The translations under genes and the position numbers were made by a program. 64,000 bases of DNA from Hyphomicrobium sp. GTDB taxonomy: Bacteria > Pseudomonadota > Alphaproteobacteria > Rhizobiales > Hyphomicrobiaceae. Location: the NCBI GenBank assembly GCA_025351425.1, contig JANXVY010000069.1, positions 1 to 64,000 of the forward strand, written 5' to 3'. This document shows, piece after piece, positions 13,086 through 20,708 of this stretch. How positions within the stretch are numbered: position 1 is the stretch's first letter; every line of letters starts with the position of its first letter. The notes beneath the pieces were generated by a model. The model had not been told where the DNA came from, ran no database searches, and saw only the letters and a list, made by a program, of their open reading frames with translations.

Positions 13086-13189
13086 TAGAGCATTTTCCGA
13101 CGAAGTGGATACCGGTTCGTCGCAGAAAATGCAAAAAAATCAAGAACCTAGAGCAAAATTCCGATTCCGTAGGATCGGAATTTGCTCTA
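13086..13189. repeat. 104-bp two-palindrome repeat, copy 1 (RIME1-like)
   Basis: An interspersed repeat made of two palindromes. The first has arms GCATTTTC-CGACGAA and TTCGTCG-CAGAAAATGC; the second has arms TAGAGCAAA-TTCCGAT and ATCGGAA-TTTGCTCTA. A second copy of the same length lies at 18577-18680 with three mismatches, all in the spacer or second palindrome. Copy 1 sits in the intergenic gap between convergent gltX and the DUF2865 gene. Length and double-palindrome structure match the rhizobial RIME1 class as I remember it. Confidence 0.88.
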
Positions 13190-18454: not shown

Positions 18455-20110
18455 ATGAACACGGATGCCGCGGCCGCTGGCGAAAGGGCGTCTTCCCATT
18501 GGGGCGCCGATATTCTCGCCTCGCTGGTCGTGTTCCTGGTGGCGCTGCAGCTGTGCATGGGCGTCGCCGTCGCATTTAGAGCATTTTCCGACGAAGTGGA
18601 TACCGGTTCGTCGCAGAAAATGCCACAAAATCAAGAACCTAGAGCAAAAATCCGATTCCGTAGGATCGGAATTTGCTCTAAGCTGCCACCGACGGCAGGC
18701 ATCATCACCGGCATCATCACCGGTATCATCGGCGGCATCGTGGTCGGGTTCCTTGCCGGCTCGCCGTTGCAGGCGAGCGGGCCAGCGGCCGGGCTATCGG
18801 TGCTGGTGCTTGAGCTCGTGCACGAACACGATCCGGCCCTGCTCGGCGTCATCGTGCTGTTTGCAGGCTTGCTTCAGGTGCTGGCCGGCGCGTTGAAGCT
18901 CGGCCAGTGGTTTCGCGCCATGTCTCCAGCGGTCATTCACGGCATGCTCGCTGGCATCGGCGTTCTGATTCTCGCCGCGCAGTTTCATGTCATGCTGGAT
19001 GGCAAGCCGCTCGGTACCGGCATCCAAAACCTGATGGCCATCCCCGCTGCCCTAATGGACGCCGTCAAGGCCGGCGATACGCGGTTGCAGGCATTCGGCA
19101 TCGGTGCGCTGACGATCGTCGCGATCTTCGCCTGGGGATCGCTCGCGCCCAAGCGCTGGCGGATGCTGCCGGGCCCGCTCATCGGCGTGATCGCCGGCAC
19201 CGCCGCTGCGGCCGCCTTCAAGTTGACAGGCATCAAATATGTCGACGTGCCTTCCAACATCTGGTCGGTGACCATCTTCCCGACGCCTGCCAACCTGCTG
19301 CAGATTTTTGAGCCCGCCATCGCCCTCGGAGCGTTTTCCATCGCCGTCATCGTAAGCGCGGAGACGTTGCTATGCGCGACCGCCGTCGACCAGTTGCACC
19401 GGGGCGAGCGGACCAAGTACGACAAGGAGCTGACCACTCAAGGCGTCGGTAATGCGTTGTGCGGGCTGCTCGGCGCGCTGCCGTTGACCGGCGTGATCGT
19501 GCGGTCGTCGGCGAACGTGGAGGCCGGCGCCAAGACGCGCTATTCCGCCATCCTGCATGGCGTCTGGCTCCTGGTGTTCGCAAGCTTCCTGCCGTTCACG
19601 CTGCGTTATGTGCCGGTTTCGGCGCTGGCCGGCGTGTTGCCGTTCACGGGCTACAAGCTGGCATATCCCAAGGTCCTCCCGGAGCTTTTGAAGTTCGGCC
19701 GCAGCGAGGTGCTGATCTTCATTGTGACCATTGCGACGATTGTCGCGACCGACTTGCTGAAGGGCGTGTTGTTGGGCCTCGTGCTGTCGCTCATGAAGCT
19801 GCTCTATGCGTTTTCCCACCTCGAGATTCGGCAGGTGGAGAATGCGACCACCAACACGACCGACCTCCATCTGACCGGCGCCGCAACGCTGATCCGGCTT
19901 CCGCTGCTTGCCGCGGAACTCGAAAAGCTGCCAAAGGGTGCACATGTCCGGGTCTTCATCGACGAGCTGGGCTACATCGCTCATGCCTGCATCGATCTGC
20001 TGACCAATTGGGATCGCCAGCATCGCTTCATGGGCGGGTCGCTCGCGATCGAATGGGAGGGCCTGACGAACCGCTACGCCAGCGGGCGCGGTCTGCCCAA
20101 GCCTGCCTGA
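18455..20110 (+). CDS. SulP family anion transporter with in-frame repeat insertion
   Basis: A short SulP/SLC26-type transporter, 551 residues from the ATG at 18455 (a GTG at 18413 is an alternative). It begins ADILASLVVFLVALQLCMG (first helix), then normally passes directly into PPTAGIITG and GIIGGIVVGFLAGSPLQASG (second helix). Here about 36 codons of foreign sequence, encoded by the 104-bp palindromic repeat at 18577-18680, separate the two helices without breaking the frame. Remaining helices follow, with a short STAS-like C-terminus (about residues 475-551). The family's ALPLCMG reads ALQLCMG, and GIITG is duplicated by a 12-bp tandem repeat. The gene may be decaying; substrate (sulfate, bicarbonate or another anion) is unknown. 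Confidence 0.8.
   Translation: MNTDAAAAGERASSHWGADILASLVVFLVALQLCMGVAVAFRAFSDEVDTGSSQKMPQNQEPRAKIRFRRIGICSKLPPTAGIITGIITGIIGGIVVGFLAGSPLQASGPAAGLSVLVLELVHEHDPALLGVIVLFAGLLQVLAGALKLGQWFRAMSPAVIHGMLAGIGVLILAAQFHVMLDGKPLGTGIQNLMAIPAALMDAVKAGDTRLQAFGIGALTIVAIFAWGSLAPKRWRMLPGPLIGVIAGTAAAAAFKLTGIKYVDVPSNIWSVTIFPTPANLLQIFEPAIALGAFSIAVIVSAETLLCATAVDQLHRGERTKYDKELTTQGVGNALCGLLGALPLTGVIVRSSANVEAGAKTRYSAILHGVWLLVFASFLPFTLRYVPVSALAGVLPFTGYKLAYPKVLPELLKFGRSEVLIFIVTIATIVATDLLKGVLLGLVLSLMKLLYAFSHLEIRQVENATTNTTDLHLTGAATLIRLPLLAAELEKLPKGAHVRVFIDELGYIAHACIDLLTNWDRQHRFMGGSLAIEWEGLTNRYASGRGLPKPA
18577..18680. repeat. 104-bp two-palindrome repeat, copy 2, inside sulP
   Basis: This copy has the same orientation and length as the repeat at 13086-13189, with three mismatches. 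It lies wholly inside the SulP reading frame between codons for transmembrane helices 1 and 2. It encodes an Arg-rich, polar peptide (starting FRAFSDEVDTGSS and ending FRRIGICSK with flanking bases) that has no counterpart in SulP proteins. All codons through the element are sense in the transporter frame. Confidence 0.9.
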
Positions 20111-20128: not shown

Positions 20129-20708
20129 GTGAGCAAGGAACGACTGGCGGCCTTCAGCGACGGTGTGATCGCGATCATCATCACCATCATGGTGCTGGAA
20201 CTGAAGGTGCCGCACGGGGGCGGACTGGGCGACGCTGGCCAAACTCGGGCCGGCGTTCATCAGCTACGTGCTCAGCTTCATCTTCGTCGCCATCTAATGG
20301 AACAATCACCACCATCTGGTCTACGCGACCAAGGCGGTCAACGGCGCCATCCTGTGGGCGAACACCCACCTGCTGTTTTGGCTGTCTCTGATCCCGTTCA
20401 CGACCGGCTGGATGGGCGAAAATCACTTCGCTGAGCTGCCGGTTGCCGTCTACGGGCTGTCGCTGCTGATGCCGGCCATCGCGTACTACATCCTGCAGCG
20501 GTGCATCGTCGCGGCGAACGGCGACGACCGTACGCTCGCCCAGGCGTTGGGCCGCGATGTCAAAGGCAAGCTCTCGCCGCTGCTGCGCCTGGCGGGGATC
20601 GGTCTCGCGTTCGCCAACCCATTGTATGCCTGCGCCGTTTATACGCTCATTGCCCTCGTGTGGCTGGTTCCCGATCCGCGCATCGAGCGGGCGATCAAGG
20701 CGGAGTAG
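20129..20708 (+). pseudogene. TMEM175-family channel gene, frameshifted and nonsense-mutated
   Basis: The product starts at GTG 20129 with SKERLAAFSDGVIAII, which carries the TMEM175 RxxxFSD-type signature in helix 1. After about residue 31 the frame shifts near 20218-20230. The other frame continues DWATLAKLGPAFISYVL and meets an in-frame TAA at 20295-20297, exactly where the family has a Tyr (FVAI-stop-WNNHHHL). It then reads on through LLFWLSLIPFTTGWMGE and PVAVYG to the stop at 20706-20708. Bacterial TMEM175 proteins are potassium-permeable channels of about 190-200 residues. Two independent lesions argue for a real pseudogene rather than one sequencing error. It follows sulP by 18 bases. 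Confidence 0.85.

Follow-up and report, generated by a model that had tools for sequence, protein, structure and literature searches.

A 104-bp palindromic repeat, probably an IS630-type MITE, lies in frame within a SulP transporter gene of a Hyphomicrobium genome

The window, that is, the whole 64,000-nt stretch of Hyphomicrobium sp. contig JANXVY010000069.1 that was analysed, contains a gene for a SulP-family anion transporter whose reading frame runs through a double-palindromic, MITE-like element. A second copy of this element lies about five kilobases upstream, and a broken gene follows the transporter immediately downstream. The features of the locus are as follows:

13086 to 13189, forward strand: another copy of the element, in the intergenic space where the ends of two genes converge
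18455 to 20110, forward strand: coding sequence of the SulP-family anion transporter (Sulfate_transp, E 8e-54; weak STAS match)
18577 to 18680, forward strand: double-palindrome MITE-like element of 104 bp, in frame within SulP, with two differences from the family consensus
18581 to 18623, forward strand: left palindrome in the fold of the SulP-borne element
18640 to 18680, forward strand: right palindrome of the same element, with GATTC (GANTC) at 18654 to 18658 beside the loop
18698 to 18721, forward strand: 12-bp tandem duplication (GGCATCATCACC twice), which adds GIIT to helix 2 and is absent from homologues
20129 to 20702, forward strand: TMEM175-like gene, disrupted by a frameshift plus an in-frame TAA (20295 to 20297)

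At the insert, the transporter frame reads ...GVAVA-FRAFSDEVDTGSSQKMPQNQEPRAKIRFRRIGICSK-LPPTAG... without a stop codon, the element in this frame corresponding to FRAFSDEVDTGSSQKMPQNQEPRAKIRFRRIGICSK between GVAVA and LPPTAG; AFSDEVDTGSSQK is an example of a peptide that the predicted product would contribute from the insert. A preliminary description of this DNA had placed about 36 stop-free codons between helices 1 and 2. We indeed find 36 altered codons, two of which stand in for the usual S-G, leaving a net gain of 34 codons (102 bp). Its further claim that SulP proteins normally pass from the first helix directly into the second is borne out by all 37 homologues in our alignment (from Hyphomicrobium, Geobacteraceae, Novosphingobium, Sphingomonas, and Verrucomicrobia), which lack the insert or any extra residues here and proceed from A-(S)G straight to the P-rich beginning of helix 2. 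With 37/37 homologues lacking the extension and nothing found in its favour, we give practically no credence to the idea that it is a normal trait of a SulP subfamily. The inserted loop had also been called polar and Arg-rich; the five R are there, but with three K, two D, and two E the insert is only moderately basic. In an AlphaFold model of the protein (27 sequences, pTM 0.69), residues 46 to 76 have a pLDDT of <50 and the remainder is folded.

That the same double palindrome occurs at 13086 to 13189 and at 18577 to 18680, with three mismatches, had been reported correctly in both coordinates and count; the differences (3/104) fall at element positions 48, 50, and 74. A BLAST query of the 3.54-Mb genome with the 104-bp sequence gave 50 matches, the best at E 9e-49, a recurrence far above chance expectation. 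In total, at least 58 element sites are dispersed through this Hyphomicrobiaceae genome, assigned from its relatives to Hyphomicrobium or its vicinity, along with additional short pieces; the flanks were analysed at 58 sites, and the consensus and reading frames in 38 full-length copies. No transposase gene is present in the 104-bp element, and an Rfam search of the window left it without a match, a tRNA being the sole hit. The SulP copy differs from the consensus of the 38 full-length copies at only two positions and is therefore young or well preserved; the insertion looks recent. Many contigs break off close to an element, a few hundred bases away at most, which would fit the repeat having been joined into SulP by a short-read assembler. 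We nevertheless consider such an artefact highly improbable, because the 104-bp copy would fit inside a typical short read and lies mid-contig, it carries private substitutions and differs from the consensus at two positions, its T...A junction is unique, and a misjoin would not tend to preserve the frame plus the motif on both sides.

The flanks and ends of the element point to its mobiliser. At the 58 sites, the ends are near-identical and the flanks family-wide read C/TA...TA/G, i.e., TA within CTAG. The SulP copy is flanked by T...A (TTAA), unlike nearly all other sites, where CTAG is found; SulP homologues read TCN GGC, without a TA, at the insertion point, so that the comparison does not show a clean TA duplication there. 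Fragments of IS630-family (DDE_3) transposases are present in this genome, and the right end of the element, GATCGGAATTTGCTCTA, matches an IS630 (DDE_3) end on contigs C79, C80, and C83 at 16/17 bases; the 3′ end of one IS630 fragment reads GATCGGAATCTGCTCTA followed by G. A complete IS630 with both ends was not recovered from this genome, in which contigs break inside IS630. One is available from another genus of the family (L187), where it starts with TAGAGCATTTTCCGAC after a C, ends in TGCTCTA before a G, and is CTAG-flanked; its left end is identical to that of our element, TAGAGCATTTTCCGAC. This complete IS630 of the sister genus (L187:1070-2149) also has a run of eight A residues between its two transposase reading frames, at which a programmed frameshift is possible.

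IS630 prefers the TA in CTAG as its target (PMC2170065, citing Tenzen and Ohtsubo 1991), and ISY100 duplicates TA (PMC2170065). Given the common ends and the TA/CTAG flanks, an IS630-type MITE is the best reading of the repeat. We consider it very likely that the element is a nonautonomous MITE moved by an IS630 transposase and that the SulP insertion represents an open-frame, frame-neutral copy; the family, the ends in common with IS630, the empty sites, the open frame, and the length and frame properties of the whole family are seen directly in the sequences, while IS630 transposition, translation, and tolerance by the protein are what we infer. In mechanistic terms, an IS630-family (Tc1/mariner-type) transposase would mobilise the miniature element in trans, inserting it at TA, mostly inside CTAG, with duplication of the TA. 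One copy would have entered SulP at the junction of helices 1 and 2, where read-through would give a protein that is 34 residues longer, with a probably disordered loop.

The dimensions of the element are well suited to such an outcome. Its length is exactly 104 bp in 38/38 full-length copies analysed, and a few copies among the 58 flanked sites deviate (103 and 106 bp). Subtracting the duplicated TA leaves 102 bp, a multiple of three, so that the frame is kept; under the proposed mechanism, any genic insertion of a 104-bp copy would be frame-neutral. Among the 38 full-length copies, frame +1 is open in 28, frame +2 in 35, and frame -1 in 37. About half of the combinations of orientation and frame would thus be stop-free and, combined with the net gain of 3n, about half of all intragenic insertions are expected to stay in frame. 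A special mechanism is therefore unnecessary for in-frame survival, yet such survival is rare. Longer variants of 131 to 252 bp (L130, L133, L138, L139, and L145) contain an extra piece of 27 bp followed by repeats of 24 bp, both multiples of three; their left palindrome holds one to six tandem copies of the 24-bp unit (about ACGGCGAAGCCTCGCTCCATGAAG), and in L130, L133, L138, and L139 the length gained is a multiple of three.

By our own codon-usage gene calls, elements sit inside genes at just 1/58 sites, compared with 15/32 for background CTAG, counted in the one window (Fisher p 2e-7). This difference argues that intragenic copies are purged and that SulP is a rare survivor; it is also the only one of the 58 sites at which we found a Pfam domain to be interrupted. 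Most strongly coding frames that meet an element do so at their very end. By the same gene calls, 14/15 strongly coding frames entering an element terminate exactly at its first TAG (binomial p 2e-6 versus an expected one third), and the elements at these 14 loci of the genome (L002, L008, L010, L014, L023, L027, L119, L124, L128, L130, L132, L134, L139, and L144) begin precisely at the TAG stop of the upstream frame. ArgJ, LeuB, GAPDH, and CcmH, with an element at their stop, align with their Pfam profiles right up to the end and are clearly full length. The same TAG-stop junction is seen in 6 of the 10 such frames in relatives and in an annotated dioxygenase gene of Chelatococcus (L263:1501). 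The natural reading of these junctions is that the element would insert into the CTAG made by a TAG stop codon, with the stop being regenerated. Other ORFs of 119 to 690 aa that span elements in this genome had no Pfam match, or a match on one side only, and resemble gene ends or frames left open by chance in GC-rich DNA. The frames that run across elements in relatives (L343, L345, L331, and L321) were likewise rejected, being chance-like or starting after the element.

What became of the transporter itself is a matter of weighing its sequence, by which it may be functional, impaired, or in early decay. SulP could have been disabled, or already been redundant, and now be at an early pseudogene stage, its frame staying open only because the element is frame-neutral and young. 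Its TMEM175 neighbour, 19 bp downstream, is interrupted by a nonsense codon as well as a frameshift. Next to the insert, residues that are otherwise invariant have changed (P32Q and the SG scar), breaking a near-invariant motif; helix 2 bears the four-residue duplication; further changes affect invariant sites (G126D, V396P, and D509A); and the depletion of intragenic copies described above speaks for strong selection against such insertions. Set against this, the gene has 551 codons without a stop or frameshift, the coding signal is sustained outside the insert, and both of its indels are multiples of three. A simple in-frame nonsense scan of the window, which flagged SulP's own stop only, speaks neither for nor against wider decay. 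Accelerated evolution as proof of a pseudogene was rejected, the SulP branch (relative distance 1.15) being no longer than the control branches of CysS (1.20) and CimA (1.05) from the same genome, and invariant sites changed at a rate of 0.052, compared with 0.056 in CysS. Taken together, we see close to an even chance that SulP is decaying. The TMEM175-like sequence is otherwise well conserved despite its frameshift and TAA; no TMEM175 gene accompanied SulP in the homologous loci that were searched.

A second in-frame case came from frame analysis of the copies in relatives, which exposed a left half-element within a pyridoxal kinase-like gene (Phos_pyr_kin; PDB pyridoxal kinases, E 1e-24). 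The insert of 21 residues, RAFSSEVDTGSREENATDKQP or close to it, is carried by four genomes of one genus (G043, L291; G057, L292; G061, L293; G055, L294) and absent from the 26 other aligned homologues, and it shares its reading frame with the SulP insert. Outside the insert, dN/dS between carriers is 0.12 to 0.20; within it, replacement changes about equal silent ones (pooled pN/pS about 1.1, from few sites). The gene outside the insert is thus under purifying selection. On this signal the enzyme probably still functions, and the half-length relative has been tolerated across several species of the sister genus. AlphaFold predicts a confident fold (pTM 0.88), in which the insert forms a loop, modelled at low confidence, that connects a helix to a strand. 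G055 clusters with the insert-free G048 in the gene tree, while its insert shows a closer relationship to the other carriers than its flanking sequence does, a conflict which implies that local recombination (transfer), a second insertion, or losses were involved.

By analogy, the SulP insert might be translated and the transporter working, in line with the reading of pyridoxal kinase above and with what is reported for Rickettsia guanylate kinase. The two inserts have a common reading frame and a similar peptide, RAFSxEVDTGS; the flanks in pyridoxal kinase are under purifying selection; and Rickettsia gmk offers a precedent (PMC2229807). The insertion point in SulP, however, is a highly conserved motif, not a variable loop, and neighbouring residues are altered. 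We regard a working transporter with a translated insert as a serious possibility that falls somewhat short of even.

Several known repeat families resemble the element in part. The analogy with the palindromic elements of Rickettsia (RPE; Ogata et al. 2000, from the reviews PMC2229807 and PMC10969869) that was drawn in the preliminary description has gained strength from the independent pyridoxal kinase case in sister species. RPE are palindromes of ∼100 to 150 bp that lie in frame in unrelated conserved genes, with a peptide frame that is constant from host to host, and are tolerated by the protein; likened by behaviour, our element is in frame in SulP and pyridoxal kinase, with empty orthologues in existence. 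Unlike RPE, intragenic copies are not common, there being a single one among the 58 sites, the host is an ordinary Hyphomicrobiaceae bacterium with a 3.5-Mb genome, and the element has the ends and the target site of IS630. The likeness to RIME1-type repeats known as intergenic, also proposed earlier, is supported by the architecture, which is like that of rhizobial and caulobacterial repeats regarded as intergenic: going by their descriptions, CIR (Caulobacter/Brucella) and RIME1 (rhizobia) share with the element two inverted-repeat arms plus a linker, a size of ∼100 bp, a GANTC beside one loop, a mainly intergenic location, and a Hyphomicrobiales distribution. CIR has reportedly never been found intragenic and has stops in all six frames (PMC2229807), in contrast to the three open frames and the two in-frame cases, SulP and pyridoxal kinase, described here. 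RUP of Streptococcus pneumoniae, a MITE of ∼107 bp thought to be mobilised by the transposase of IS630 (IS630-Spn1), is similarly intergenic with stops in all six frames (PMC2229807), again unlike an element that has three open frames and is in frame in SulP. The 107-bp Correia/NEMIS repeats and ERIC differ in organisms, ends, and lengths. By its sequence features, the element is best read as a putative IS630-type MITE with a CIR/RIME-like architecture that is RPE-like in rare cases.

Discussion of in-frame palindromic insertions in conserved proteins has mostly centred on Rickettsia and Wolbachia, where they are readily explained by the weak selection acting on reduced genomes. In the present case, the same outcome is seen in an alphaproteobacterium with an ordinary 3.5-Mb genome, and a repeat of the "intergenic" class can, judging by the pyridoxal kinase gene, apparently be absorbed into working proteins. 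Because the likely mobiliser (IS630), the target rule (TA in CTAG), and the frame arithmetic (a net gain of 3n with half of the frames open) can all be stated, survival of such peptides is directly testable; for pyridoxal kinase, orthologues with and without the insert are available for an enzyme comparison. We would only tentatively go further and propose that a frame-neutral, IS630-driven MITE of the CIR/RIME type acts in Hyphomicrobiaceae as an RPE-like modifier of proteins, with SulP and pyridoxal kinase staying functional and copies elsewhere hidden in the TAG stops of host genes.

Outside this genome, a family-wide search found a diverged form of the repeat in 24/103 genomes, and the element was present in 49/297 genomes of an order-wide sample. 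Plasmid records with the element come from Methylobacterium, Bradyrhizobium, Xanthobacter, Methylorubrum, and Chelatococcus. Finally, a variant of the right palindrome in L123, L124:1500, and L144 reads GAGTGCGC...AAGCGCTC; both arms of its stem are altered, which suggests that pairing is maintained.
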